Below, piece by piece: positions 4,850 through 34,894 of a stretch of DNA of 64,000 bases. How positions within the stretch are numbered: position 1 is the first letter of the stretch; each line of letters opens with the position of its first letter. The notes under the pieces are model-generated. The model worked only from the letters and a program-made list of their open reading frames with translations. It made no database searches and had not been told where the DNA came from. The translations under genes and the position numbers were made by a program. The DNA comes from Zafaria cholistanensis (lineage in GTDB: Bacteria > Actinomycetota > Actinomycetes > Actinomycetales > Micrococcaceae), in the NCBI RefSeq assembly GCF_008580665.1, contig NZ_BKDJ01000007.1, positions 62,001-126,000 on the forward strand, written 5' to 3'.

Positions 4850-4883
4850 TACAGGGTTGCAATTCCGCATGGAACTGCGGCGC

Positions 4884-4956
4884 GGGGCTTTAGCTCAGTT
4901 GGTAGAGCGTTTCGTTCGCAATGAAAAGGTCAGGGGTTCGATTCCCCTAAGCTCCA
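4884..4956 (+). tRNA. tRNA-Ala (anticodon CGC)
   Basis: Seventy-three nucleotides folding into a complete cloverleaf. The acceptor stem pairs GGGGCTT with AAGCTCC, followed by discriminator A. The D arm is AGCTC..GAGC, the anticodon loop TTCGCAA gives anticodon CGC, and the T arm is AGGGG-TTCGATT-CCCCT. The 3' CCA is not encoded. It reads GCG alanine codons, common in this GC-rich DNA. Confidence 0.95.
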
Positions 4957-6108
4957 CAGTTTGCAGGGATTTTAGGCCGGGCTCCGGCCCGAAAAGCACA
5001 CTTTCGACACGCCTTGCCCGTTTTGCCCCATCTGGGCACTGCCCGCTGAGTACCATGCGGCCAGAATAACGGGCTCCAGGCCGGGCAGCGCTGAGATGCT
5101 GGCGCGCTGGCCCTAGCCTATGACCGACTTCGCGCAATACGGCTTGTGCCCGCAACATGGGTGGCTTCACTCCGGGCGTCGCTTAGATGCATGGCGAGCA
5201 ACCCGGAGGATCTGGCCGGTCAGAAATCGGTGTCCCGGGCCAAGATCGAAGAAGCGATCGGGGTAGCCTTTGGCTGACCCCATTAACGCCGCATGCATCC
5301 GGCGCCCGGGAGACGCTTAAGCGGACGGACCTCAATCTCGCGGTGAGGATTCTCTCCTGCCGCCGGGCACTTGCAGTTGACCGGCGGCGCTCCAGAGAGC
5401 GGTCCACCGTGCTGCGGATGATGCCCAGTAGCTTGCCGATCTTCAAGCTCATGAGGTGGGTGTCGCATCTGCCGCCTATAAAATTGATTCTCGTATATGC
5501 GGCGACAATCGACGTCCCCACACCGCGGAATTCCGCGGGACCGGGACGACGCTCATCGCCCCAGAAAATGTCGCGCTGGACGATCGGCTACTGGGACGGC
5601 CGGCGGGCCAGCTGGGTTGACGACGCCCTGCCAGGCTCCCGCGGCAAGCAGACTTCATCGCCCCGAGCATGAACCCGGGGCGGGGTGCGGACATGGACCT
5701 AGGCAAACGGTCCCCGCCGGCGTTACGAAGGTGTCCTCCAACCTACCTTCATGACACGGGGCGGTTTCAAAGGGTCCTTGCAAGACATAGCGGGACCGGG
5801 AGTGGAGCTCGTGAGAATCCCCAGTGTGAAGACCTCGACTCCGTTTGGAATCGGGGTCCTCGTTGGGTCACACCAGATTTTGGGCCTCCTGCGCCCTTTG
5901 GCCTGATTTTTAGGGTACGACGCCGGCTCGGCCTGGACTGCGTTCGTCGGGATAACCCAGGCAGGTACCGGCAAACTCGCAGCCGGTTTCGCGGACGGCG
6001 CTGTTGAGTCCGGGCGGGCGTGCGCTCGAATCCGGTGGAGCCGCGTACTTCTGCCCCTTCGCTGTTCCCTTTTCGTCCTTTCGGGACGTACGCAACCGGC
6101 GCGTTAAC
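4957..6108. other. Gene-poor segment after tRNA-Ala
   Basis: More than 1.1 kb without a convincing gene, on either strand. Candidate short frames include 5191-5277 (+, 28 codons, MASNPEDLAGQ...) and 5751-5906 (+, 51 codons, MTRGGFKGSL...). Past the TGA of the latter the same frame reads on as GYDAGSAWTAFVGITQAGTG, which looks protein-like but has no start. On the minus strand near 5390-5450 a string KIGKLLGIIRSTVDRSLERRR resembles an HTH. Base composition looks less GC-biased than the flanks. It may be a decayed insertion beside a tRNA; nothing proves it. Confidence 0.4.
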
Positions 6109-15254: not shown

Positions 15255-15302
15255 CTTAACTCGGTTCGGCGGACGGAAACGGACAGCCGGAACCACCTCC
15301 TC

Positions 15303-15375
15303 GGGGGTATGGCGCAGTTGGTAGCGCGTCTGCATGGCATGCAGAAGGTCAGGGGTTCGAATCCCCTTACCTCCA
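15303..15375 (+). tRNA. tRNA-Ala (anticodon GGC)
   Basis: Seventy-three nucleotides forming a full cloverleaf. The acceptor GGGGGTA pairs with TACCTCC, discriminator A. The anticodon stem TCTGC/GCAGA encloses loop ATGGCAT, giving anticodon GGC. The T arm is AGGGG-TTCGAAT-CCCCT. CCA is not encoded. It reads GCC and GCU alanine codons and complements the CGC isoacceptor at 4884. Confidence 0.95.
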
Positions 15376-15380
15376 CCGAA

Positions 15381-20151: not shown

Positions 20152-21738
20152 TCAAGGCCTGCCAAGCCCTGCCCCTATCCGGGGCTCGGGGCCCGCGGCC
20201 CCCACCAGCGCGGCGAGCGCCTCCAGCTGGGCGGACCGGCACTGCGGCTTCAGGTACATCATGTGGCCGGCCTCGTGGTGGAGGTGCGTGAAGCGGGCCC
20301 GCGCCTGCGGGCTCAGGTTCATGTGTGCCCACACGTATTCGGCCGCGTAGTGCGGGGTGGCGCCGTCGTGGTAGCCGTAGTCGACATGCACGCGCAGCTG
20401 CGGCAGGTCCACCAGCAGCCGTTCCAGGTCCTGCGTCACGTCCACCGGGGCGCCCTCGAACGTGCGGTAGCTCCATGGCTGCACGCGTCCGGTGAGGACC
20501 TCGTAGGGAAGGTCGGACGCGTAGCCCAGCTCGGCGCGCACATAGTGGTTGATGGCCGCGGAGTAGGGGCCGGCGATGGCGCGCAGCGACGGGTCGTCCC
20601 AGGTGTGGGACGCCTGCAGGCGCGGTGGCTGGCCGGCGAAGCGCCCGTCGATCCGGCCCACCATCAGGCCCTTGTCGCGGAGCAGTTCGGTGGCAAACTC
20701 CATGTACTCCCAGCGCAGGTTGGTGCGCCGGATGAAGGCCTCGGACAGGGTGGTCAGCTCGGCCAGGTGCTTCACGACGGCGTCGTACTTGCGCTTGGAG
20801 AGCCGGTTGCCCAGGTGCAGGGCCACCACGAAGTCCCCGGAGGCGTAGTCTTCGGCGTCGCGGACCACGTCCTCGAGCCGGCGGTTGCCGTGCCGGCCGT
20901 GGTAGTGCGCGATCGCCGCGTAGGTCGGCAGGTGCAGCGCATAGGGGGTGTCATTGCCCGGCCGGAAATCCAGCGTGGACAGGTTCAGCACCGGGCTGAC
21001 CAGGCCCAGCCCGTTGACCGCCAGCCCGTGCGACTCAAACAGGCGCCGGGCCACAGCGACGGCCCGCAGCGTCCCGTAGCTCTCGCCGACCAGGTACTTG
21101 GGGGAGAGCCAGCGGTTGTTGCGGGTGACCCAGAGCCGGATGACCTCGGCCACGAGGTCCCGGTCTTCGATGAAGGCGTGGAACTCATCCACCGGCCCGC
21201 CGTGCACCACGCGGGAGAACCCGGTGTTGACCGGGTCAATCATTACCAAATCGGCGTGCTCCAGCAGCGACTCGGGGTTGTCCACGATCCCGTACGGGGC
21301 CGGGACCATGGAGCCGACGTCGCCCGAATCGACCAGCCGGGGCCCCAGGAGCCCCATGTGCAGCCAGACGCTGGCCGACCCCGGCCCTCCATTGAACGCG
21401 AACACCACCGGCCGGCGGTTCGGCTCCGGCGGCACCGCCTTCTTCTGCGCGCGGGAGCGGCCCTCGGCGCGGCCGGGGGCTCCGGCGTCGTCGGCGGTGT
21501 AGGCGACCAGGAAGATCTCCGCCTTGGGCAGGAATCCGTGGACGCGACCGTCGCGGGTTTCCTCCCGGCGCAGCACCAGCCGCCCGGTGGTGGTCGTGTA
21601 GCGAAGCCCGGAAGGGGCGGTGTGGCGGCGGACGGTGAAGTCGTCGGTCGCCTCGGGGGTGCCGGGGGATGGCGTCGGGAGGGCGCCATTGGGCGGGGTT
21701 GCGGGGGTGGCTGATTCGGGGACGGTCTGCTCGGACAT
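20152..21738 (-). CDS. S10 family peptidase (serine carboxypeptidase-like)
   Basis: A 528-residue alpha/beta-hydrolase of the S10 type. The oxyanion-hole motif FNGGPGSASVWLH and the nucleophile motif VGESYGT with Ser220 are plain; MIDPVNTGFSRV matches the family's 'DQPVGTGFS' region, and HVDYGYHDGATPHYAAEYVWAHM carries the Asp/His region with GHMMYL near the end. No signal peptide is visible, so unlike eukaryotic relatives it is probably cytoplasmic. A Pro/Thr-rich tail precedes the domain. Start MSEQTVPES at 21738. Substrate unknown. Confidence 0.88.
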   Translation of the reverse strand: MSEQTVPESATPATPPNGALPTPSPGTPEATDDFTVRRHTAPSGLRYTTTTGRLVLRREETRDGRVHGFLPKAEIFLVAYTADDAGAPGRAEGRSRAQKKAVPPEPNRRPVVFAFNGGPGSASVWLHMGLLGPRLVDSGDVGSMVPAPYGIVDNPESLLEHADLVMIDPVNTGFSRVVHGGPVDEFHAFIEDRDLVAEVIRLWVTRNNRWLSPKYLVGESYGTLRAVAVARRLFESHGLAVNGLGLVSPVLNLSTLDFRPGNDTPYALHLPTYAAIAHYHGRHGNRRLEDVVRDAEDYASGDFVVALHLGNRLSKRKYDAVVKHLAELTTLSEAFIRRTNLRWEYMEFATELLRDKGLMVGRIDGRFAGQPPRLQASHTWDDPSLRAIAGPYSAAINHYVRAELGYASDLPYEVLTGRVQPWSYRTFEGAPVDVTQDLERLLVDLPQLRVHVDYGYHDGATPHYAAEYVWAHMNLSPQARARFTHLHHEAGHMMYLKPQCRSAQLEALAALVGAAGPEPRIGAGLGRP

Positions 21739-22387: not shown

Positions 22388-22670
22388 GGCCCATCCTCCA
22401 AAACGTTGGGGTGTCGATGTTGCTGGAATAACCTTCCCTAACCCGTGTTTCCTGGCGATTACGCCGGAGTTAGGCCCGTGTGAGAAGTTCCCGCCCGGCG
22501 TGAACGCTGCGGGTCGCCGGGCCCCGAACCGCCGAAGCTCCGCACTGCCGTGCGGGGTTCCCGGGGAACCGGGTTCCCCGTGGGCCGCGGGCCGGGACAT
22601 ACTGAAAGCCGGATCCGCCCTGCCGGCCGCACCGCCGGAACGCACTGCGGCGGCCGAGGAGGGGCCGCCC

Positions 22671-25600
22671 ATGACCGTCCACCCGATTCGTCCGCAGGAA
22701 TTGGCCGGGGACGCCGTCCAACTGGCCCGCCGCTGGGTGGCCGAGGCAGCCACCGTCCCCGTCGACGCCTCCGCCGCCCGGCTGGCGGGGGTCCTTCGGG
22801 ACCCGAAGGGACTGGCGTTCACAGTCGGCTTCGTTGACGGCGTCGTGCGCCCCGAGGACCTCTCGGTCGCGGCCCGCAACCTGCGCGCTCTGGCCCCCGA
22901 CGTCCCGGCGTTCCTGCCCTGGCCGCTCCGCCGGACCGTCGCCCTGGGAGGACTGCTCGCCCCGGTGCTGCCGGGGGTCGTGGTGCCCGTGGCCCGCCGC
23001 GTCCTGCGGCGGATGGTGGGGCACCTGGTGGTTGATGCCACCGATGCCCGGCTGGGCGCAGGGTTGGCCCGCGTGCGGCGCGAGGGCGTCCGCCTGAACG
23101 TGAACCTTCTGGGTGAGGCCATCCTGGGCGAGGCGGAGGCAGCCCGGCGGCTGGAAGGCACCCGCCGCCTGCTGGCCCGGGACGACGTCGACTACGTCTC
23201 CATCAAGGTCTCCTCCACCACCGCCCCGCACAGCCGGTGGGCCTTTGAGGAGGCGGTGGAAACGGTCGCAGACCGGCTGCTGCCGCTGTACCGGCTTGCC
23301 GCCGGGTCGGCGCGGCGCAAGTTCATCAACCTGGACATGGAGGAGTACAAGGACCTGGAGCTGACCATCGCGGTCTTCACCCGGTTGCTGGAGCGCCCGG
23401 AACTGCACCGGCTTAAGGCCGGCATTGCCCTGCAGGCCTACCTGCCCGACGCACTGTCGGTGATGGCCCGGCTGCAGGAGTGGGCGGCGGCCCGCACCGG
23501 CAACGGCGGCGCTCCGATTAAGGTCCGCGTGGTCAAGGGCGCCAACCTGCCGATGGAAACGGTCGACGCGGACCTGCACGGCTGGCCGCTGGCCACCTGG
23601 GGCAGCAAGCAGGAAACGGACACCTCCTACAAAGCGGTCCTGGACTACGCGCTGGAGCCGGACCGGACAGCCAACGTGCGCATCGGCGTGGCCGGACACA
23701 ACCTCTTCGACATTGCCCTGGCCTGGCTGCTGGCCAAGGCCCGCGGCGTCACGGACGGGATCGAGTTCGAGATGCTCCTGGGCATGGCCACCGGTCAGGC
23801 CGAGGCGGTCCGGCGTGAAGTCGGCTCGCTGCTGCTGTACACCCCGGTGGTGCACCCGGGGGAGTTCGACGTCGCCATCGCCTACCTGATCCGCCGCCTC
23901 GAGGAGGGCGCCAGCCAGGAGAACTTCATGTCCGCCGTCTTCGAACTGGGTTCCGACCCGTCCCTCTTCGAGCGCGAAAAGGACCGTTTCCTCGCCTCCC
24001 TTGCCGCCCTCACCGACCGGGTGCCGGCTCCCCACCGCACCCAGGACCGTGACCGCGAACACCGCCGGTATGAGGACGCCGCCGCCGAGGCGGCCCGCCG
24101 CGCGGCCGGCACCGGGCCGGTCCAGGGGGGCGGCCAGGGGGGCGGCCGGGCAGTCGGCCAGCGGCCGGGAGAGGGGACCGGGACCGCACCGGCGGGGCCC
24201 GCCGGACGGACAGACTTTGTCAGCCCCGCCACGTACTTCGCCAACACCCCGGACACCGACCCCGACCTGCCGGGAAACCGGGCGTGGGGCCGGGCAATCC
24301 TGCGCCGGGTCCCCACCTCCACCCTGGGCCTGGCCTCGGCATCCTCCCGCGTCATCGGCACCGAGGCAGCCCTGGAGGCGGCGGTTTCCGCCGGCGTCGA
24401 ACACGGCACGGCCTGGGGAGCGCTGCCGGCCACCACGCGCGCCGCCGTGCTCCACCTGGCCGGAGACCGGCTGGAGGCCCACCGTGCCGACCTGCTCGAG
24501 GTGATGGCTGCCGAATGCGGCAAGACGCTGGACCAGGGCGACCCCGAGGTCTCCGAGGCGATCGACTTCGCCCACCACTACGCCGAACTGGCCCGTGAGC
24601 TGGAGATGGTCGACGGCGCCCGGTTCATCCCCTCCAAGCTCACCGCCGTCGTCCCGCCGTGGAACTTCCCGGTGGCGATCCCCGCCGGATCCACGCTGGC
24701 CGCACTCGCCGCAGGGTCCGGCGTCCTGCTCAAACCCGCCACACCGGCCCGGCGCACCGGGGCCGTCCTGGCCGAGGCGCTTTGGGAAGCGTTTGAGGAG
24801 GCCGGCGTGGACCGAAGCGTGCTGCAGTACATCCAGCTCGGCGACCGGCGGCTGGGACGGCGGCTGATCGCCCACCCCGCGGTGGACCGCGTGATCCTCA
24901 CCGGCGGGCACGAGACCGCCGAGCTGTTCCGTTCCTTCCGCCCGGACCTGCCCCTGCTGGGGGAAACCAGCGGCAAGAACGCGATCATCGTGACCCCGTC
25001 CGCGGACCTGGACCTGGCCGCCCGGGACGTGGCGACCTCCGCGTTCGGGCATGCGGGGCAGAAGTGCTCGGCTGCGTCCCTGGTGGTGCTGGTTGGATCC
25101 GCGGCCCGCTCGCGGCGCTTCCGCGACCAGCTGGTCGATGCCGTCCGTTCGCTGCACGTGGGCTACCCCTGGGACCCGCGCACCCGCATGGGCCCGGTCA
25201 TCGAGCCGGCCCGGGGCAAGCTGCTGAGGGGGCTGACCGTCCTGGGCGAGGGCGAGCACTGGGTGCTGGAACCGCGCCCGCTGGATGCCTCGGGGAAGCT
25301 GTGGAGCCCGGGCATCCGGGCCGGCGTCCAGCCAGGATCTGAGTTCCACCGGATCGAGTACTTCGGCCCGGTGCTGGGCGTGATGGCGGCGGAGACGCTT
25401 GAGGAGGCGGTCGCCGTCGCCAACGGCACCGATTACGGCCTGACCAGCGGGCTGCACTCGCTGGACCGGGACGAGGTCGCGTACTGGCTGGAGCACATCC
25501 AGGCCGGCAACCTCTATGTGAACCGCGGCATCACCGGGGCGATCGTGCACCGCCAGCCGTTTGGCGGCTGGAAGAAATCGGCCGTGGGGCCGGGAGCCAA

Positions 25601-26495
25601 GGCCGGCGGCCCGAACTACCTGATCGGGCTGGGGGCCTGGGAGGATGCGCCTGCCCCCGGCGGGGCGCCCGGACGGGACAGTGCTTCCGGACAGGGCGGT
25701 ACTTCCGGACAGGACAGTGCTTCCGGACAGGATGGGGCTTTGGAACAGGGCAGGGCTGTGGACCAGGACAGGCCGGCCGGGTCCGGACCGGCCGCGGCGC
25801 TGCACGCCGCCGCCCGCGCCTCCGTTGCCGGGCCCTCCCCGGCCCGCATCTCCCCGGCCCGCATCTCCACGACCCGCACCTCCGCGACCCGCACCTCCCC
25901 AACGCAGTCCGGCGGGGAAGCCCAACTGTCCTCCGCCGACGTCGCCTGGCTGGGGCAGGCCCTGGCCTCCGATGCGCTGGCCTGGAACCGCCTCTTCGGT
26001 CCCGCACGCGACGTGTCGGGGCTGCGGGCCGAACGCAACGTGCTGCGCTACCGGCCCGTTCCGGTCACTGTCCGCTTCCACTCCGCGACCTCCGGGCACG
26101 GCATCGCCGAGCTGGTGCGCGTGCTGGCCGCAGGCCTCACCGCCGGGAGCCTCCCCGTGGCGAGCACCGCCGTGGTGCTTCCGGAACCGGTCCGCCACGC
26201 ACTCACCGCCGCCGGGGTGGCGGTGCACGTCGAGGACGACGCCGCGTGGCTGGACCGGGCCGCCGCCCTGGCCGCGCGCAACGGCCCGGAGCCGGGGCTG
26301 CGCCTGCGGCTGATCGGCGCGGACCCGGCAGCAACCGCCCGCGCGGTGGGGGGTTCGCCGGACGTCGCCATCCACGCCGGCGCAGTGGTCTCCTCCGGCC
26401 GGGTGGAACTGCTCCCGTTCCTGCGTGAACAGGCCGTCTCCATCACCGCGCACCGCTTCGGCACCCCCCACGGGCTCGCCGACGGGCTGCTGTAG
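22671..26495 (+). CDS. putA: Bifunctional proline dehydrogenase / P5C dehydrogenase, copy 1
   Basis: A 1274-residue enzyme oxidising proline to glutamate in two steps. The FAD-dependent proline dehydrogenase barrel spans about 1-450 (KVRVVKGANLPMETVDADLHGWPLATWGSKQETDTSYK; substrate Arg pair in YLIRRLEEGASQENFM). A Gly/Pro/Ala linker follows at about 470-520. The aldehyde dehydrogenase domain runs about 525-990, with PPWNFPVAIPAG, LLGETSGKNAIIVTP and active-site Cys799 in GHAGQKCSAAS. A repeat-rich linker (about 1000-1085) leads to a C-terminal domain. The ATG at 22671 follows gaggaggggccgccc. Long tracts are almost identical to copy 2 at 31220. GH15 follows after 49 bp. Confidence 0.95.
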   Translation: MTVHPIRPQELAGDAVQLARRWVAEAATVPVDASAARLAGVLRDPKGLAFTVGFVDGVVRPEDLSVAARNLRALAPDVPAFLPWPLRRTVALGGLLAPVLPGVVVPVARRVLRRMVGHLVVDATDARLGAGLARVRREGVRLNVNLLGEAILGEAEAARRLEGTRRLLARDDVDYVSIKVSSTTAPHSRWAFEEAVETVADRLLPLYRLAAGSARRKFINLDMEEYKDLELTIAVFTRLLERPELHRLKAGIALQAYLPDALSVMARLQEWAAARTGNGGAPIKVRVVKGANLPMETVDADLHGWPLATWGSKQETDTSYKAVLDYALEPDRTANVRIGVAGHNLFDIALAWLLAKARGVTDGIEFEMLLGMATGQAEAVRREVGSLLLYTPVVHPGEFDVAIAYLIRRLEEGASQENFMSAVFELGSDPSLFEREKDRFLASLAALTDRVPAPHRTQDRDREHRRYEDAAAEAARRAAGTGPVQGGGQGGGRAVGQRPGEGTGTAPAGPAGRTDFVSPATYFANTPDTDPDLPGNRAWGRAILRRVPTSTLGLASASSRVIGTEAALEAAVSAGVEHGTAWGALPATTRAAVLHLAGDRLEAHRADLLEVMAAECGKTLDQGDPEVSEAIDFAHHYAELARELEMVDGARFIPSKLTAVVPPWNFPVAIPAGSTLAALAAGSGVLLKPATPARRTGAVLAEALWEAFEEAGVDRSVLQYIQLGDRRLGRRLIAHPAVDRVILTGGHETAELFRSFRPDLPLLGETSGKNAIIVTPSADLDLAARDVATSAFGHAGQKCSAASLVVLVGSAARSRRFRDQLVDAVRSLHVGYPWDPRTRMGPVIEPARGKLLRGLTVLGEGEHWVLEPRPLDASGKLWSPGIRAGVQPGSEFHRIEYFGPVLGVMAAETLEEAVAVANGTDYGLTSGLHSLDRDEVAYWLEHIQAGNLYVNRGITGAIVHRQPFGGWKKSAVGPGAKAGGPNYLIGLGAWEDAPAPGGAPGRDSASGQGGTSGQDSASGQDGALEQGRAVDQDRPAGSGPAAALHAAARASVAGPSPARISPARISTTRTSATRTSPTQSGGEAQLSSADVAWLGQALASDALAWNRLFGPARDVSGLRAERNVLRYRPVPVTVRFHSATSGHGIAELVRVLAAGLTAGSLPVASTAVVLPEPVRHALTAAGVAVHVEDDAAWLDRAAALAARNGPEPGLRLRLIGADPAATARAVGGSPDVAIHAGAVVSSGRVELLPFLREQAVSITAHRFGTPHGLADGLL
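25671..25774 (+). repeat. 18-bp tandem repeat in putA copy 1 linker
   Basis: Five to six units, first ggacgggacagtgcttcc (25671-25688), then 25689-25706, 25707-25724, 25725-25742, 25743-25760 with increasing divergence. They encode GRDSAS-GQGGTS-GQDSAS-GQDGAL-EQGRAV after the ALDH domain. The matching part of copy 2 lacks them. Confidence 0.9.
25839..25898 (+). repeat. 15-bp tandem repeat in putA copy 1 linker
   Basis: Four units: ccggcccgcatctcc twice (25839-25853, 25854-25868), acgacccgcacctcc (25869-25883), gcgacccgcacctcc (25884-25898). They encode PARIS-PARIS-TTRTS-ATRTS. Confidence 0.9.
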
Positions 26496-26544: not shown

Positions 26545-28425
26545 ATGGCTTCCCCGATCGAGGACTACGCACTTCTCTCGGACCAGCGGACCGCGGCCCT
26601 GGTCTCCATCACGGGCAGCATTGACTGGATGTGCCTGCCGCGGTTCGATTCGCCGTCGGCCTTCTCCGCGCTGCTGGGCACCGCCGACCACGGACGCTGG
26701 CTGCTGGCCCCGGCCGGCGCCGTCGACCACTTCGCCCCGGACGGCGCCAGCGTGGGCCGTCCCCGGGGGGCCGTGCCCTACGGGGCACCCGTGGTGGTGG
26801 AGCGCTCCTACGTCGAATCCACCTTTGTGCTGCGCACGCTGTGGCGCGCGGCCGGAGGGGAGGTGCTGGTCACCGACCTCATGCCCGTGGGGGACCGCCG
26901 CGCCTCGCTGGTGCGGCGGGTGGAGGGCCTGGCCGGGAGCGTGCCGATGCACATGGACCTGCGCATCCGGTTCGGGTACGGGGCCGTGCTGCCGTGGGTC
27001 CGCCGGTACGGGGAGGACCGCGGGCTGCGCTCGATCGTGGCGGTGGCCGGGCCCGACGCGGTCGTGCTCCACGGCGACCGGCTGCCGAGGGTCTCGGACC
27101 GGATACCCCAGCCGGCCAACCACCGGCACCTGGTGGACTTCACGGTGGACGCGGGCACGGTGGTGGACTTCGAGCTGTGCTGGTTCCCGTCCCACCGCGA
27201 AGTTCCGGAGATGCTCGACGTCGGCGCCGCCCTGCACCACACCACCACCTACTGGCAGAAGTGGGCCCGGGACATTCCCCGGCAGGAGTCCTACGACGCG
27301 ATCGTGCGGCGGTCCCTGCTGGTGCTGTGCGCGCTTACGGACGAGGCCACCGGCGGGATCGTGGCCGCGCCCACCACCTCGCTGCCGGAGGAGTTCGGCG
27401 GGGAACGCAACTGGGACTACCGCTTCTGCTGGCTGCGCGACGCGGCCCTGACGCTGGAGGCGATGATGACCCACGGCTATGAGATGGAAGCCCAGCGGTG
27501 GCGCAACTGGCTGCTGCGGGCGGTGGCCGGGGACCCCGAGGACCTGCAGGTGATGTACGGCGTGTCCGGCGAACGCGAGCTTCCGGAACGGGAACTGCCC
27601 CACCTGCCCGGGTACCTGGGCTCGCTGCCGGTGCGGATCGGCAACGGCGCGGTGGGCCAGTACCAGGGGGACGTGGTCGGCGAGGTCCTGGTGGCCCTGG
27701 AGAAGCTGCGCAACATGGGCGGCATCGAGGACAACTTCTCCTGGCCGCTGCAGGCGGCCATGCTGGGCTACGTGGAACGCCACCTGGACCGGAAAGACCA
27801 CGGAATCTGGGAGATGCGCGGGGACAAGCAGCACTTCACCCATTCGCGGGTGATGATGTGGGCCGCGTTCGACCGGGGCGTGCGGGCGGTGCGGGACCAC
27901 GGGCTCGACGGCGACGCCGCCAGGTGGGCGCTGCTGCGCGACCGCCTGCGCGCGGAGATCCTCAAGCACGGCTTCAACCGGCAGGAGAACACCTTCACCC
28001 AGACCTATGCCGGCACCGAGGTGGACGCTTCCCTGCTGGTGCTGCCCCAGGTGGGGTTCGTGGCCTACGACGACCCGATGATGCTGGGCACCGTAGCGCG
28101 CCTGGAGCGCGACCTGCTCGACGGAAACGGCCTGCTGCTGCGCTACCGGACGCAGGACGGCATCGACGGGCTGCCGCCGGGGGAGCACCCCTTCCTGGCC
28201 TGCTCCTTTTGGCTGGCCGAGCAGTACGCCCGGTCCGGGCGGATCGGGGATGCGCGGGAACTGATGGACCGGCTGGTCGGCTACGCCAACGGGCTGGGGC
28301 TGATGGCCGAGGAGTACGACGCCCACACCGGAAGGATGGCCGGGAACTTCCCGCAGGCCTTCTCCCACCTGGCGCTCATCCGTGCGGCGGATGCCATTAA
28401 CGGCCACGCCCAGGCCGCGCTGTAG
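26545..28425 (+). CDS. Glycoside hydrolase family 15 protein (trehalase/glucoamylase-like)
   Basis: A 626-residue cytoplasmic protein of the bacterial GH15 type, which includes mycobacterial-type trehalases and glucoamylases. It opens with SPIEDYALLSDQRTAALVSITGSIDWMCLPRFDSPSAFSALLG, the conserved N-terminal domain, and has the (alpha/alpha)6 barrel with APTTSLPEEFGGERNWDYRFCWLRDAALTLEAM, a signature of the family, and ENTFTQTYAGTEVDASLLVLP and EEYDAHTGRMAGNFPQAFSHLALI near the end. The barrel acids should lie in these segments. The ribosome site is weak. Position between putA and putP makes a link to osmolyte turnover (trehalose, proline) attractive but unproven. Confidence 0.9.
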   Translation: MASPIEDYALLSDQRTAALVSITGSIDWMCLPRFDSPSAFSALLGTADHGRWLLAPAGAVDHFAPDGASVGRPRGAVPYGAPVVVERSYVESTFVLRTLWRAAGGEVLVTDLMPVGDRRASLVRRVEGLAGSVPMHMDLRIRFGYGAVLPWVRRYGEDRGLRSIVAVAGPDAVVLHGDRLPRVSDRIPQPANHRHLVDFTVDAGTVVDFELCWFPSHREVPEMLDVGAALHHTTTYWQKWARDIPRQESYDAIVRRSLLVLCALTDEATGGIVAAPTTSLPEEFGGERNWDYRFCWLRDAALTLEAMMTHGYEMEAQRWRNWLLRAVAGDPEDLQVMYGVSGERELPERELPHLPGYLGSLPVRIGNGAVGQYQGDVVGEVLVALEKLRNMGGIEDNFSWPLQAAMLGYVERHLDRKDHGIWEMRGDKQHFTHSRVMMWAAFDRGVRAVRDHGLDGDAARWALLRDRLRAEILKHGFNRQENTFTQTYAGTEVDASLLVLPQVGFVAYDDPMMLGTVARLERDLLDGNGLLLRYRTQDGIDGLPPGEHPFLACSFWLAEQYARSGRIGDARELMDRLVGYANGLGLMAEEYDAHTGRMAGNFPQAFSHLALIRAADAINGHAQAAL

Positions 28426-28446: not shown

Positions 28447-29946
28447 CTAGAGGCGCCGCTCCATCTCGGCGAATTCGGCGTGGACCTCGTCGCTGTGGCG
28501 GTGGGTGGCCACCGAGACCAGGACCGCGACAACGGTGCAGGCGATGAAGCCAGGGACGATCTCGAACATCGCATCCGAGAGGGCGGGCACGTTGCCCCAG
28601 ATGCCCACCGTCACCGCACCGGCGACCATGCCGGCGAGCGAACCCATGGCGGTCATCCGCCTCCAGAACAGGGAGAGCAGGATGACCGGGCCGAAGGCGG
28701 CTCCGAAGCCGGCCCACGCGAATCCGACCAGATCCAGGATTGTGCCGCTGGGGTTCAGTGCCAGCAGGCCGGCGGCCAGGGCGACGACGAGCACGCCCAT
28801 GCGGCCCAGCAGGACCTGCTTCTTCGGGGCCAGCTTCCGGCCGAAAATGTTGTACAGGTCCTCCACCAGGGCCGAGGAGCAGACGATCAGCTGCGAGGAG
28901 ATGGTGGACATGATGGCGGCCAGCACGGCGGCGAGGACCAGCCCGGCGACGAACGGGTGGAACAGGGTCTGCGAAAGCACCAGGAACACCGTCTCGGGGT
29001 TATCCAGCGTCAGGCCGCGGCTCTGGATAAAGGCGATGCCGATGAGGCCCGTGAGGATGGCGCCCAGCGCCGTGGCGACCATCCAGGAGATGCCGATCCG
29101 GCGGCCGGCCCGGGCATCCGCCGGGGAACGCAGCGCCATGAAGCGAACGATGATGTGCGGCTGGCCGAAGTAGCCAAGCCCCCACGCTGCGGCGGAAACG
29201 ACGCCCAGGGCGGTGCCGCCGAAAAGCAGCGACGTGCGGCGCAGTTCGGCCTCCGCACCGGCGGCGTTCGCCGCGGCGTCGGCCGCACCGATGCCCGCGG
29301 CCACCTCGCCCCAACCGCCCATGGAAACCAGCGCAATGAGCGGTACGGCGATCAGGGCGGCCAGCATGAGCAGGCCCTGCGCCACGTCGGTGAGCGTGGC
29401 GCCGAGGAACCCCCCGAAGAGGGTGTAGGCCAGCGTGATGCCGGCCACCAGAAGCATGCCCACGAGGTAGGGGGCACCGAACGTCGCCTCGAAAAAGACG
29501 CCGCCGGCGACGATGCCGGAGGAGACGTAGAAGGTGAAGAAGGCCAGGATGATCACTCCGGAGGCCACGCGCAGCAGGCGCGTCTTGTCCTTGAACCTGT
29601 TTTCGAGGAAGCTCGGCACGGTGATCGAGTTGTTGGAGACCTCGGTGTAGGAACGGAGCCGGGGGGCGACGAACCTCCAGTTCAGCCACGCGCCGATGGT
29701 CAGGCCAATGGCGATCCACGCCTCAACCAAACCGGCCGCGTAGATGGCACCGGGCAGCCCCAGCAGCAGCCAGCCGGACATGTCGGAAGCGCCGGCGGAG
29801 AGTGCGGCCACGCCGGGCTTGAGCGAGCGGCCGGCAAGCATGTAGTCGTCCAGGTCCTCGGTCTGCCGGAACGCGTAGTAGCCGATGGCGAGCATCGCGG
29901 CGAAATACAGTCCAATCGCCAGGAGTTGAAATCCTTGTTCAGTCAT
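28447..29946 (-). CDS. putP: Sodium/proline symporter
   Basis: A 499-residue Na+/solute symporter of the SSS family, with about thirteen hydrophobic helices. Diagnostic features are the start QLLAIGLYFAAMLAIGYYAFRQTEDLDDYMLAGRSLKPGVAALSAGASDMSGWLLLGLPGAIYAAG, including the DMSGWL Na+-site segment, and GRRIGISWMVATALGAILTGLIGIAF. AAIMSTISSQLIVCSSALVEDLY is the helix-8 Na+-binding signature. Proline is the expected substrate given two putA genes flanking it. The ATG at 29946 follows caaggaacacc. It lies downstream of the LysR gene on the same strand (152 bp). Confidence 0.93.
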   Translation of the reverse strand: MTEQGFQLLAIGLYFAAMLAIGYYAFRQTEDLDDYMLAGRSLKPGVAALSAGASDMSGWLLLGLPGAIYAAGLVEAWIAIGLTIGAWLNWRFVAPRLRSYTEVSNNSITVPSFLENRFKDKTRLLRVASGVIILAFFTFYVSSGIVAGGVFFEATFGAPYLVGMLLVAGITLAYTLFGGFLGATLTDVAQGLLMLAALIAVPLIALVSMGGWGEVAAGIGAADAAANAAGAEAELRRTSLLFGGTALGVVSAAAWGLGYFGQPHIIVRFMALRSPADARAGRRIGISWMVATALGAILTGLIGIAFIQSRGLTLDNPETVFLVLSQTLFHPFVAGLVLAAVLAAIMSTISSQLIVCSSALVEDLYNIFGRKLAPKKQVLLGRMGVLVVALAAGLLALNPSGTILDLVGFAWAGFGAAFGPVILLSLFWRRMTAMGSLAGMVAGAVTVGIWGNVPALSDAMFEIVPGFIACTVVAVLVSVATHRHSDEVHAEFAEMERRL

Positions 29947-30098
29947 GGTGTTCCTTGAATCTTGGCGCGGTAAGCGCGGTTCTCGCAGGTCCTCGTCAGG
30001 GGGAGGGGCACCCCCCAACGCCGCGGGGGCGGCACGGGAACGCCTACGAGTATGGCAGTGAATCGGGCAGCAGGTGGCGGCCGTCACTGAGGCGTGAT

Positions 30099-31049
30099 TT
30101 ACCGCGACGGTTTGGCGGGGCGCTCCGGCGCCGGCGGACGGCCCGTGGAGAGTGCCGCCGCGCCCGCCGCCAGCGCCCGCCGGACGGCGGCAACGGCCGG
30201 ATGGCCGGCGCTGGATTCCCGCATCGCGGTGAAGACCGTCCGGTGCGGCCTCCCGGAGAGGTCCACCTGGCGGATGCGCGCCTCCCGGGAGACCCAGACC
30301 AGGTCGGGGAGCAGGGCCACGGCATGGCCCGATTCGACCAGGCGCACATGGGCCTGGAGATCGGCGGTCTCGAAGCGCACGTCCGGCTCGAACCCGGCCG
30401 AACGGCAGGCCTGCTCCGCCCAGTGCCGCGACGCCGCCCCGCGCGGTTCCATGACCCAGGGAAGCCGGGCCACCTGCTCCAGCGAGACCGCCCTGCCGAA
30501 CTGGGCCGGGGCACCGGCGGCGGGCAGGCACAGCCGGATGGCGTCGTGGATCAGCGGCTCCCGGTCCAGGCCCGGGTGGTGCGGGGCCGCGTGCCCCGGA
30601 TACTGCTCGGCCACCACCAGGTCGAAGGTCCGCGCCCAGGTTTCCCGCAGGGCCGTCTCCGGCTCGTGCTGCACCATCTCCACCCGTATGCCGGGATGGC
30701 TGGAGCGCAGGGTGCGCAGCATGCCCGGGATCAGGGCCAGTGCCGCCGTCTGGAAGACGGCCAACCGCACCGTTCCGGCGACGGCCGGTTGGGTGGAGGC
30801 GAGCGCCGCCTCGGCGCGTTCCAGCGAGTCCAGCAGTTCCGCGGCGTGCGCCACCAGCACTTGTCCCTGCGGGGTGAACTGCAGCCGCCGCCCGCTCTTG
30901 CGCAGCAGTTCCACCCCGGCCTCCTGCTCCAACTGGGACAGCTGCTGGGAGACCGAGGAGGGGCTGTAGTTGAGGGCCGCCGCCACGGCGGCAACGGTGC
31001 CCCTGATGCTCAATTCGCGCAGCAGGCGCAGGCGGCGTATATCGAGCAT
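30099..31049 (-). CDS. LysR family transcriptional regulator of the proline locus
   Basis: A 316-residue LysR regulator. The N-terminal winged HTH is MLDIRRLRLLRELSIRGTVAAVAAALNYSPSSVSQQLSQLEQEAGVELLRKSGRRLQFTPQGQ; the effector domain follows from about residue 90 (GTVRLAVFQTAALALIPGMLRTLRSSHPGIRVEM). It is divergent from putA copy 2 across 170 bp, the standard LysR arrangement, and upstream of putP, so control of proline uptake and oxidation is likely. The ATG at 31049 follows cggaggcccaag. Candidate operator repeats lie at 31083-31113. Confidence 0.9.
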   Translation of the reverse strand: MLDIRRLRLLRELSIRGTVAAVAAALNYSPSSVSQQLSQLEQEAGVELLRKSGRRLQFTPQGQVLVAHAAELLDSLERAEAALASTQPAVAGTVRLAVFQTAALALIPGMLRTLRSSHPGIRVEMVQHEPETALRETWARTFDLVVAEQYPGHAAPHHPGLDREPLIHDAIRLCLPAAGAPAQFGRAVSLEQVARLPWVMEPRGAASRHWAEQACRSAGFEPDVRFETADLQAHVRLVESGHAVALLPDLVWVSREARIRQVDLSGRPHRTVFTAMRESSAGHPAVAAVRRALAAGAAALSTGRPPAPERPAKPSR

Positions 31050-31219: not shown

Positions 31220-34200
31220 GTGCACCTGACGCCCCCGATCCCTTCCGGCACCGCACCCCGGGAGTCCGCCCGTCCCCGGGTTTCCCGCCGCTCCGGCCCG
31301 GACCCGCACGGTGCCGGTCAGCACGCCGGGTGCCCCCAGCCCCGGCCCCAAGACCTCGCCGAAGACGCAGTGGCCCTGGTCCGCCGGTGGCTCACCGAGG
31401 CGGCCCAGGTTCCGGTGGATGCCTCGGCCGCGCAGCTCGCGGGCGTCCTGAAGGACCCCAACGGGCTGGACTTCACGGTCGGCTTCGTCGACGGCGTCGT
31501 GCGCCCCGAGGACCTCTCGGTCGCGGCCCGCAACCTGCGCGCGCTGGCGCCGAAGGTCCCCTCCTTCCTGCCCTGGTACATGCGTTCGGCCGTGGCGCTG
31601 GGCGGGGCGCTGGCGCCGGTGCTGCCGGGGGTCGTGGTGCCCGTGGCCCGCCGCGTCCTGCGCGAGATGGTCGGACACCTGATCGTGGATGCCACCGACG
31701 CCAAGCTGGGCCGCTCCATCGCGAAGATCCGCAGGGACGGCGTCCGCCTGAACGTGAACCTGCTGGGTGAGGCCATCCTGGGCGAGGCGGAGGCAGCCCG
31801 GCGGCTGGAGGGCACCCGCCGCCTGCTGGCCCGGGACGACGTCGACTACGTCTCCATTAAGGTCTCCTCCACCGTCGCCCCGCACAACCACTGGGCCTTC
31901 GACGAGGCCGTGGCCCACATCGAAGAGCAGCTCGCCCCGCTCTACCGCCTGGCCGCCTCCGCCACGCCCCGGCGCAAGTTCATCAACCTGGACATGGAGG
32001 AGTACAAGGACCTGGAGCTGACCATCGCGGTCTTCACCCGGATCCTGGACCGTCCCGAGTTCCGCGACCTCGAGGCGGGCATCGTCCTGCAGGCCTACCT
32101 GCCGGACGCGCTCTCGGCCATGATGCGGCTGCAGGAGTGGACGGCCGCCCGCGTCAAGGCCGGCGGCGCTCCCATCAAGGTCCGCGTGGTCAAGGGCGCC
32201 AACCTGCCGATGGAAACGGTCGACGCGGACCTGCACGGCTGGCCGCTGGCCACCTGGGGCAGCAAGCAGGAAACGGACACCTCCTACAAGGCGGTCCTGG
32301 ACTACGCGCTGGAGCCGGACCGGACAGCCAACGTGCGCATCGGCGTGGCCGGACACAACCTCTTCGACATTGCCCTGGCCTGGCTGCTGGCCAAGGCCCG
32401 CGGCGTCACGGACGGGATCGAGTTCGAGATGCTCCTGGGCATGGCCACCGGTCAGGCCGAGGCGGTCCGGCGTGAAGTCGGCTCGCTGCTGCTGTACACC
32501 CCGGTGGTGCACCCGGGGGAGTTCGACGTCGCCATCGCCTACCTGATCCGCCGCCTCGAGGAGGGCGCCAGCCAGGAGAACTTCATGTCCGCCGTCTTCG
32601 AACTGGAGGCGAACGAAGCGCTCTTCGAGCGCGAAAAGCAGCGCTTCCTGGCCTCGCTGGACGCGCTGACTGCCGAGGTGCCGGGCCCGAACCGCACCCA
32701 GGACCGCTCCGCGTTCGACGCCGCGGCCGCCGAGGCGCGGATCGCGGACCTGGCCGCCGGCCGGGCGGAGTTCACCAACACCCCGGACACCGATCCGGAC
32801 CTGCCGGCGAACCGCACTTGGGGCCGGGCGATCACCGGGCGCATGCGCGGCTCCGGCCTCGGTGCCGCGACCGTCCGCGAGAACACCCTCACCACCCCCG
32901 AGCAGCTGGAGCACGTCATGTCCGCCGCAGTGGCGGCGGCTGCCGGCTGGCAGGCGCTGGGAGCGGACCGCCGCGCCGAGATCCTCCACCGGGCCGGCGT
33001 CGTCATGGAGGCGCGCCGCGCCGAGTTGCTGGAGGTCATGGGCTCCGAGTGCGGCAAAACCCTGGACCAGGGCGATCCCGAGGTGTCCGAAGCCATCGAC
33101 TTCGCCCACTACTACGCCGGTCTCGGCCAGGAGCTTGAGCGCGTCGACGGCGCCACCTACGTGCCCTCGAAGCTGACGGTGGTGACCCCGCCGTGGAACT
33201 TCCCGGTGGCGATTCCCGCCGGTTCCACCCTCTCGGCACTCGCCGCAGGTTCCGCCGTCGTCATCAAGCCGGCCCACCCGGCCGCGCGCAGCGGTGCGGT
33301 GATGGTGGAGGCCCTCTGGGAGGCGGGCGTCCCGCGCGACGTGCTCCAGTACGTCCAGCTCTCCGAGCGCGAGCTCGGCACGCAGTTAATCTCCCACCCG
33401 GCCGTGGACCGGCTGATCCTCACCGGCGGGTACGAGACCGCCGAGCTGTTCCGCTCCTTCCGCCCGGACCTGCCGCTGCTGGCCGAGACCTCCGGCAAGA
33501 ACGCGATCATCGTGACCCCGTCCGCGGACCTGGACCTGGCCGCCCGGGACGTGGCGGCCTCCGCGTTCGGGCACGCCGGGCAGAAGTGCTCGGCCGCGTC
33601 CCTGGTGGTACTGGTTGGCTCCGTCGCCACCTCCCGGCGCTTCCGCGACCAGCTGGTCGATGCCGTCCGTTCGCTGCACGTGGGCTACCCCTGGGACCCG
33701 CGCACCCGCATGGGCCCGGTCATCGAGCCGGCCCGGGGCAAGCTGCTGCGGGGGCTGACCGTGCTGGGCGAGGGCGAGCACTGGGTGCTGGAACCGCGCC
33801 CGCTGGATGCCTCGGGGAAGCTGTGGAGCCCGGGCATCCGGGCCGGCGTCCAGCCAGGATCTGAGTTCCACCGGATCGAGTACTTCGGCCCCATCCTGGG
33901 CGTGATGACGGCCGCGACGCTGGAGGAAGCGGTGGGCATCGTCAACGACATCGACTATGGGCTCACCTCAGGACTGCACTCCCTGAACCCGGAGGAGCTG
34001 GGCTACTGGCTGGACAACGTGCAGGCCGGAAACCTGTACGTCAACCGCGGCATCACCGGGGCGATCGTGCGCCGCCAGCCGTTCGGCGGGTGGAAGAAGT
34101 CGGCGATCGGCGCCGGCACCAAGGCCGGCGGCCCGAACTACCTGATCGGGCTGGGGTCCTGGAAGGACGCCCCCGTTGACGCTGCGGACCGTGGTTCCGC

Positions 34201-34894
34201 GCCGTCACCGGCCACCGGCCTGGCCGCTCCGCTGCTGGAGGCGGCCCGCGCCGCGGGCCTGCCCGAGGCCGACGCCGCCTGGCTGGAGCAGGCGGTCGCG
34301 ACTGACGCCGCCGCCTGGCGCGCAGAGTTCGGCACCGCGAAGGATGTCTCCGGGCTGGCCGCGGAGCGCAACGTGTTCCGCTACCGCCCGGTCCCGGTGA
34401 CCGTGCGCTATGAGGCGGAAACTTCCGGCCACGGACCCGCCGAACTGCTGCGGGTGGCCGCGGCAGGCCTGCGCGCCTGGTCCGGCATCGAAACCTCCGG
34501 CGTCCAGGCATCCGGTGTCCAAACATCCGGTGTCCAAACATCCGGAGCCCACCTGACGGTGAGCAGCGCCGTCGAACTCCCCGCCCCGCTCATGGCCGCG
34601 CTGGCCAAGGCCGGGGTTCCCGTCCGGATCGAGGACGCGGACCAGTGGGCGCGGCGCGCCCGCGAACTCGCCGGGAAGACCGGCCCGGAGTCGGCCGCCC
34701 GGATTCGCCTGATCGGCGGCTCGGTGTCCGCCACCGCCGCCGCGACCGGGGGAAAGCCCGACGTCGCCATCTACGCCGGCGACGTGGTCTCCGCCGGCCG
34801 GGTGGAACTGCTGACGTTCCTCCACGAACAGGCCGTGTCCATCACGGCGCACCGTTTCGGAACGCCAAACCACCTCAGCGACGGGCTGGTCTGA
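31220..34894 (+). CDS. putA: Bifunctional proline dehydrogenase / P5C dehydrogenase, copy 2
   Basis: A 1224-residue paralogue of the enzyme at 22671 with the same order: Pro/Arg-rich N-terminal tail (about 40 residues), proline dehydrogenase barrel (substrate Arg pair in YLIRRLEEGASQENFM), aldehyde dehydrogenase domain with PPWNFPVAIPAG, LLAETSGKNAIIVTP and Cys790 in GHAGQKCSAAS, and the same extra C-terminal domain. The linker between the domains is shorter than in copy 1. The GTG at 31220 follows caaggagtccaccacc. Being divergent from the LysR gene, this is probably the inducible, regulated copy. A strong terminator follows at 34900. Confidence 0.95.
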   Translation: MHLTPPIPSGTAPRESARPRVSRRSGPDPHGAGQHAGCPQPRPQDLAEDAVALVRRWLTEAAQVPVDASAAQLAGVLKDPNGLDFTVGFVDGVVRPEDLSVAARNLRALAPKVPSFLPWYMRSAVALGGALAPVLPGVVVPVARRVLREMVGHLIVDATDAKLGRSIAKIRRDGVRLNVNLLGEAILGEAEAARRLEGTRRLLARDDVDYVSIKVSSTVAPHNHWAFDEAVAHIEEQLAPLYRLAASATPRRKFINLDMEEYKDLELTIAVFTRILDRPEFRDLEAGIVLQAYLPDALSAMMRLQEWTAARVKAGGAPIKVRVVKGANLPMETVDADLHGWPLATWGSKQETDTSYKAVLDYALEPDRTANVRIGVAGHNLFDIALAWLLAKARGVTDGIEFEMLLGMATGQAEAVRREVGSLLLYTPVVHPGEFDVAIAYLIRRLEEGASQENFMSAVFELEANEALFEREKQRFLASLDALTAEVPGPNRTQDRSAFDAAAAEARIADLAAGRAEFTNTPDTDPDLPANRTWGRAITGRMRGSGLGAATVRENTLTTPEQLEHVMSAAVAAAAGWQALGADRRAEILHRAGVVMEARRAELLEVMGSECGKTLDQGDPEVSEAIDFAHYYAGLGQELERVDGATYVPSKLTVVTPPWNFPVAIPAGSTLSALAAGSAVVIKPAHPAARSGAVMVEALWEAGVPRDVLQYVQLSERELGTQLISHPAVDRLILTGGYETAELFRSFRPDLPLLAETSGKNAIIVTPSADLDLAARDVAASAFGHAGQKCSAASLVVLVGSVATSRRFRDQLVDAVRSLHVGYPWDPRTRMGPVIEPARGKLLRGLTVLGEGEHWVLEPRPLDASGKLWSPGIRAGVQPGSEFHRIEYFGPILGVMTAATLEEAVGIVNDIDYGLTSGLHSLNPEELGYWLDNVQAGNLYVNRGITGAIVRRQPFGGWKKSAIGAGTKAGGPNYLIGLGSWKDAPVDAADRGSAPSPATGLAAPLLEAARAAGLPEADAAWLEQAVATDAAAWRAEFGTAKDVSGLAAERNVFRYRPVPVTVRYEAETSGHGPAELLRVAAAGLRAWSGIETSGVQASGVQTSGVQTSGAHLTVSSAVELPAPLMAALAKAGVPVRIEDADQWARRARELAGKTGPESAARIRLIGGSVSATAAATGGKPDVAIYAGDVVSAGRVELLTFLHEQAVSITAHRFGTPNHLSDGLV
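34491..34550 (+). repeat. 15-bp tandem repeat in putA copy 2 C-terminal domain
   Basis: Four units: aaacctccggcgtcc, aggcatccggtgtcc, aaacatccggtgtcc, aaacatccggagccc, encoding ETSGV-QASGV-QTSGV-QTSGA. They sit in the C-terminal region at a place where copy 1 has no repeat, while copy 1 carries its own repeats elsewhere. Confidence 0.9.

Follow-up and report, generated by a model that had tools for sequence, protein, structure and literature searches.

The window analysed here, a stretch of 64,000 nucleotides from Zafaria cholistanensis, carries two putA genes in direct orientation about 8.6 kb apart (Table 1), and the question that they raise is how two genes whose proteins differ by about one quarter over the aligned length come to share blocks of near-identity that extend to silent sites. 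Recent gene conversion between these paralogues, as claimed in an earlier note on this DNA, is supported by the present analysis: silent divergence between the copies is distributed in blocks, and the same blocks vary normally between species.

Two putA genes and their neighbourhood

In both copies, the proline dehydrogenase (Pro_dh, PF01619) and aldehyde dehydrogenase (Aldedh, PF00171) domains of Pfam were found above cut-off in one chain. The NCBIfam PutA equivalog NF008869 gave each copy its top score among the best 25 of 45 models, although these scores (349 and 375 bits) fall below the curated cut-off of 747, and none of the best 25 of 45 models reached its own cut-off with either copy. 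Because NF008869 scored below its cut-off, both proteins are named here by their domains and by the nearest structure: a PutA, 5ux5, which we take to be of class 3B, was the closest solved structure by sequence in a search with copy 2. The likeness to bifunctional PutA lies in a single chain that holds the proline dehydrogenase and aldehyde dehydrogenase domains plus a further C-terminal part, and the difference in the presence of two copies in this genome, with tandem repeats at differing linker positions. These repeats, with units of 12, 15 and 18 bases (24122-24147, 25669-25757, 25834-25900 and 34491-34545), sit in linkers and C-terminal parts, at places that differ between the copies. Antisense to copy 1 runs an open frame of 1333 codons (22470-26471, minus strand), which is probably a by-product of the 70% G+C content and not a gene.

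Table 1. Coordinates of the putA genes, their neighbours and the blocks shared by the two copies (positions in the window)
Feature	Coordinates	Strand	Remarks
S10-like carboxypeptidase frame	20152..21738	-	parted from the symporter here by putA copy 1 and GH15
putA copy 1	22671..26495	+	proline dehydrogenase and aldehyde (P5C) dehydrogenase; Pfam PF01619, PF00171 above cut-off; start likely ATG 22671, open frame from 22311 (own reading of the sequence)
Candidate patch A, copy 1	23109..23228	+	partner 31763-31882; 0/28 fourfold differences
Tract T1, copy 1	23520..23949	+	partner 32177-32606; 1 synonymous difference; secure
Candidate patch T3, copy 1	24972..25043	+	partner 33494-33565; 24 codons with a single nucleotide difference, which changes 1 residue
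Tract T2, copy 1	25113..25369	+	partner 33635-33891; 2 synonymous differences; secure
GH15 glycosidase	26545..28425	+	located between putA copies 1 and 2; single in the window
Sodium:solute symporter	28447..30098	-	open frame to 30531; true start probably before the LysR gene
LysR-type regulator	30099..31049	-	divergent from copy 2
putA copy 2	31220..34894	+	architecture as copy 1 (PF01619, PF00171); at the usual locus with LysR and symporter; candidate starts GTG 31220 (first), 31370, 31415
Candidate patch A, copy 2	31763..31882	+	
Tract T1, copy 2	32177..32606	+	residues ~320-463 of P0002, proline dehydrogenase domain
Candidate patch T3, copy 2	33494..33565	+	
Tract T2, copy 2	33635..33891	+	residues ~806-891 of P0002, past the GQKCSAAS motif in the aldehyde dehydrogenase part

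The surroundings of the two genes suggest which of them belongs to the locus. In Paeniglutamicibacter (L036, L039), the gene order is S10-like carboxypeptidase, symporter (the one in the window being presumably putP-like, to judge by its position), LysR regulator and putA, with GH15 further on. The window has those same genes, but with putA copy 1 and GH15 placed between the carboxypeptidase and the symporter. Copy 2 occupies the usual symporter–LysR–putA locus, which suggests that it is the resident putA. A duplication of the whole locus was considered and rejected, as comparison of the window with itself (E 1e-8) yielded only four matches between the putA genes and one 75-base match elsewhere (4883-4957 with 15302-15376). 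Based on the gene order and on the similarity between the copies, which stops at the gene ends, we infer that copy 1 is an additional putA, either an old paralogue or a gene transferred from a Sinomonas-like lineage.

Near-identity confined to blocks

The earlier note had described 23521-23949 as equal to 32178-32606 except for one synonymous change, and 25113-25369 as differing from 33635-33891 at two positions. Both descriptions proved exact. The single difference in the 429 bp of T1 is a lysine codon, AAA/AAG, at position 23633/32290 (codon 23631), and the left edge of this tract could be moved out by one base, to 23520. The two differences in the 257 bp of T2 are likewise synonymous (AGG/CGG, Arg, at 25227, and GTC/GTG, Val, at 25241 in codon 25239), leaving the copies identical in protein there. 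It was also right that the flanks, the linkers and the C-terminal parts diverge and bear unlike repeats. Synonymous divergence along the codon-aligned genes is strongly blockwise, and the uniform divergence that would have spoken against conversion is absent: in windows of 20 codons, near-identity is limited to blocks with sharp edges. Fourfold sites differ in 0/28 cases in patch A (23109-23228), 0/85 in T1, 0/14 in T3 (24984-25043) and 2/55 in T2, a total of 2/182, as opposed to a total of 176/433 (41%) in the remaining five (39/96, 14/42, 56/136, 5/16 and 62/143). At the outside rate, the counts in T1 and T2 would have chances of about 6e-20 and about 3e-10, respectively, for blocks that were chosen after being seen.

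The tracts were assessed by a run-length permutation test, applied to fourfold sites, synonymous codons and all codons, together with a control on all pairs of putA genes. The longest run of identical fourfold sites was 87, whereas 10,000 shuffles gave none longer than 45; for synonymous codons it was 107 (shuffle maximum 49) and for all codons 105 (shuffle maximum 28). Each of the three tests singles out T1 and T2. The two differences in T2 divide it into fourfold runs of 29 and 24, which, like its runs in the synonymous test, exceed the 95% shuffle level and not the shuffle maximum, while its runs of 38 and 42 in the all-codon test exceed the maximum of 28. In the control, which took 110 putA rows and covered 5,991 other pairs with at least 300 comparable sites each (3 pairs below 300 were left out), the longest run was 50, in a pair with 98% protein identity, and in the 112 control pairs whose overall fourfold divergence was 0.25-0.35 it was 40.

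Four further patches are less certain. Patch A has 4 nucleotide differences and 1 residue difference in its 40 codons and passes the 95% shuffle level in the fourfold test only, below the shuffle maximum. T3, together with 22836-22886 and 23313-23384, which are identical across 17 and 24 codons, passes the 95% level in the all-codon test only, again below the maximum. In view of the four nucleotide differences in A and the one in T3, both are treated as candidates only, and patch A is so taken as either older or due to chance. T3 adjoins conserved motifs, with its end beside GQKCSAAS, and may reflect constraint. All four patches may be older or shorter conversions, or may be due to constraint, and the secure tracts are T1 and T2 only.

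Origin of the copies and of the shared blocks

Outside the tracts, the two genes appear to have separate histories. Over the unconverted columns, a sister relation was rejected (p-AU 0.0013, with lnL 51.2 lower when the relation was forced) in an AU test under the LG model without mixture, a result that long branches could affect. Copy 2 groups with Paeniglutamicibacter and Glutamicibacter, with an SH-aLRT of 99 in the mixture-model tree and bootstraps of 72 and 71 in two further trees. Copy 1 falls beside the Sinomonas putA lineage with moderate support, at bootstraps of 94, in a tree that left out three long-branch rows (L118, L120, L018), and 88, in a tree of 31 chosen relatives; the quick mixture-model tree assigns it to a wider group without finer resolution. 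In placement, its blocks C1, C2 and E2 prefer branches other than the Sinomonas stem, so that copy 1 may itself be mosaic or long-branched. Judged by these comparisons, the copies outside the tracts are non-sister genes, either old paralogues or a resident gene and a transferred one, and not a recent duplicate pair. The putA of L046, whose record title names a Mycolicibacterium metagenome bin, also groups with the Micrococcaceae copies, through either transfer or mislabelling.

These histories bear on the idea that the whole gene was duplicated recently and that the tracts are merely the parts left unchanged while the rest diverged fast. The proximity and direct orientation of the copies would fit such an event, the probability of which is nevertheless close to nil, given that silent sites outside the blocks have diverged by 0.31-0.43, within the intergeneric range and with sharp edges, that the copies are not sisters outside the tracts (p-AU 0.0013) and that similarity ends where the genes end. 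Some doubt remains over assembly, although it is also very unlikely that the identity arose there through the use of one copy's reads for both near-repeats (257-430 bp). The division of the genome into 49 contigs makes a short-read assembly likely, and the tracts are roughly of read length; against this, each tract contains differences between the copies, three sites altogether, and a single 185 kb contig carries both genes, with mutually dissimilar flanks.

Strong purifying selection, acting on the protein or on an overlapping DNA or RNA function such as the long antisense frame, is another means by which the blocks might be kept identical, and T1 does span much of the proline dehydrogenase domain while T3 ends beside the GQKCSAAS motif; we take the T1 region and this motif to be active-site parts. 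However, the same blocks are not invariant between species. In a comparison with 15 relatives out of 108 aligned (the alignment excluded eight rows as redundant or distant), the window copies differ at 23-56% of fourfold sites in T1 and at 31-64% in T2, hence 23-64% over both tracts, and T2 has 67-80% protein identity to these relatives, a difference at 20-33% of residues. In addition, no run above 50 was present among the 5,991 other putA pairs. Because T1 and T2 diverge normally between species, constraint on the protein or on an overlapping element is excluded as their cause, and selection is accordingly given a minimal probability. With neither uniform silent divergence along the genes nor equal invariance of the blocks between species, the blocks are best explained by recent interlocus gene conversion between the two diverged putA genes, which lie in direct orientation at a distance of about 8.6 kb, and we regard this explanation as very probable.

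We propose that copy 1 would have been added to the locus as a further putA next to the resident copy 2, that homologous recombination of the RecA type, without crossover, would have moved short patches between the copies, and that at least two patches, perhaps more, would have been transferred in this way, T2 perhaps from copy 1 to copy 2. A more far-reaching and rather unlikely version is that a horizontally acquired putA, inserted next to the resident locus, is being domesticated through two-way patchwise conversion of catalytic segments, with the linkers and C-terminal parts staying distinct. If this were true, the organism would have two proline enzymes with a partly common catalytic core and different regulation or partners.

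As to the direction of the conversion, a fixed backbone of relatives served for the placement of tract sequences, and two fixed places were also compared. T2 from either copy places best on a Sinomonas branch or stem, as do blocks N and E1 of copy 1 (protein), and it fits worse at the place of copy 2, by 10.7 lnL in protein and about 2 in DNA. When the two places were fixed, that of copy 1 was better for T2 by about 8 (protein) and 8-9 (DNA). Control placements of six unconverted blocks from the two copies, in protein and DNA, were right in 19/24 cases and wrong in 5/24, the wrong ones being, for copy 1, blocks B and E2 in protein as well as DNA (by 1.4 to 7.7) and, for copy 2, block N in DNA (by 9.0). 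Because T2 places best at a Sinomonas branch or stem and worse at the copy-2 place, the tests lean toward copy 1 as its source and weakly suggest that T2 was copied from copy 1 to copy 2. T1 showed no clear direction: in the backbone placement neither place was more than 2.4 lnL from the optimum, and with the two places fixed the preference is toward copy 1, by 4.4-5.0 (DNA) and 1.0-1.3 (protein), in a fixed-place test that errs in 5/24 controls. Patches A and T3 likewise favour neither copy as donor.

Two-copy genomes and known cases of conversion

A 561-base segment of the window (33380-33940) matched 187 of 197 genomes of the family, 10 of which, including the present one, had two matches. 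In one of the ten, G195, near-identical putA regions lie near both ends of contig C1 (L154, L155; 99.8% over 4.4 kb); this genome was dropped as a two-copy case, as the pair looks like a circular overlap that was left untrimmed and runs up to the contig end, and not like a duplication. Six other intragenomic pairs were tested, those of G006, G051, G048, G112, G004 and Pseudarthrobacter sp. NamE5, the last of which came from a separate search and not from the ten genomes with two matches; G066, G138, G174 and, in G016, a distant second gene (35% identity) were left out. No tract comparable to T1 or T2 was found in these six genomes. The longest fourfold runs were 5-13 in five of the pairs and 28 in G051, and runs as long as the observed one arose in 21 of 5,000 shuffles for G051 and in 78 of 5,000 for NamE5 (run of 13). 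The run in G051 (Arthrobacter mobilis; L147, L148) corresponds to 33446-33578 in copy-2 coordinates, in the aldehyde dehydrogenase part. Its 45 codons contain 4 nucleotide differences and 2 residue differences, and it hints weakly at a short exchange that occurred independently. In Sinomonas mesophila (G006; L116, L117), one putA is at the LysR/symporter locus and the other, of a different lineage, is without such neighbours; no conversion tract was found in this pair.

The putA genes of the window provide a clean, controlled case of conversion between genes that differ by about one quarter in protein and at 41% of fourfold sites outside the blocks, and such patches of identity can lead whole-gene trees, and the dates assigned to duplicates, astray. 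Knowledge of bacterial recombination is left unchanged by the case. Interlocus gene conversion is established in bacteria, where the tuf genes and the examples that Santoyo and Romero reportedly reviewed in 2005 are known systems, and the putA pair adds a new example, in which the partners are distant and the tracts patchy. Among the papers listed on gene conversion together with proline dehydrogenase, no report of putA conversion was found by title or by the start of the abstract, which is no proof of absence. A survey of prokaryotes describes 26 genes with recurrent concerted evolution, and its main text mentions neither "putA" nor "proline" (PMC6053082). In concerted evolution as that text presents it, e.g. 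for the tuf genes, the paralogues of one genome are closer to each other than to their orthologues, at silent sites too, and in this respect the putA tracts are alike (PMC6053082). They differ in that the conversion is partial and patchy, between partners as distant as different genera, and in that, while the genes of the survey evolve in concert recurrently (PMC6053082), the putA case consists of the tracts of one genome.
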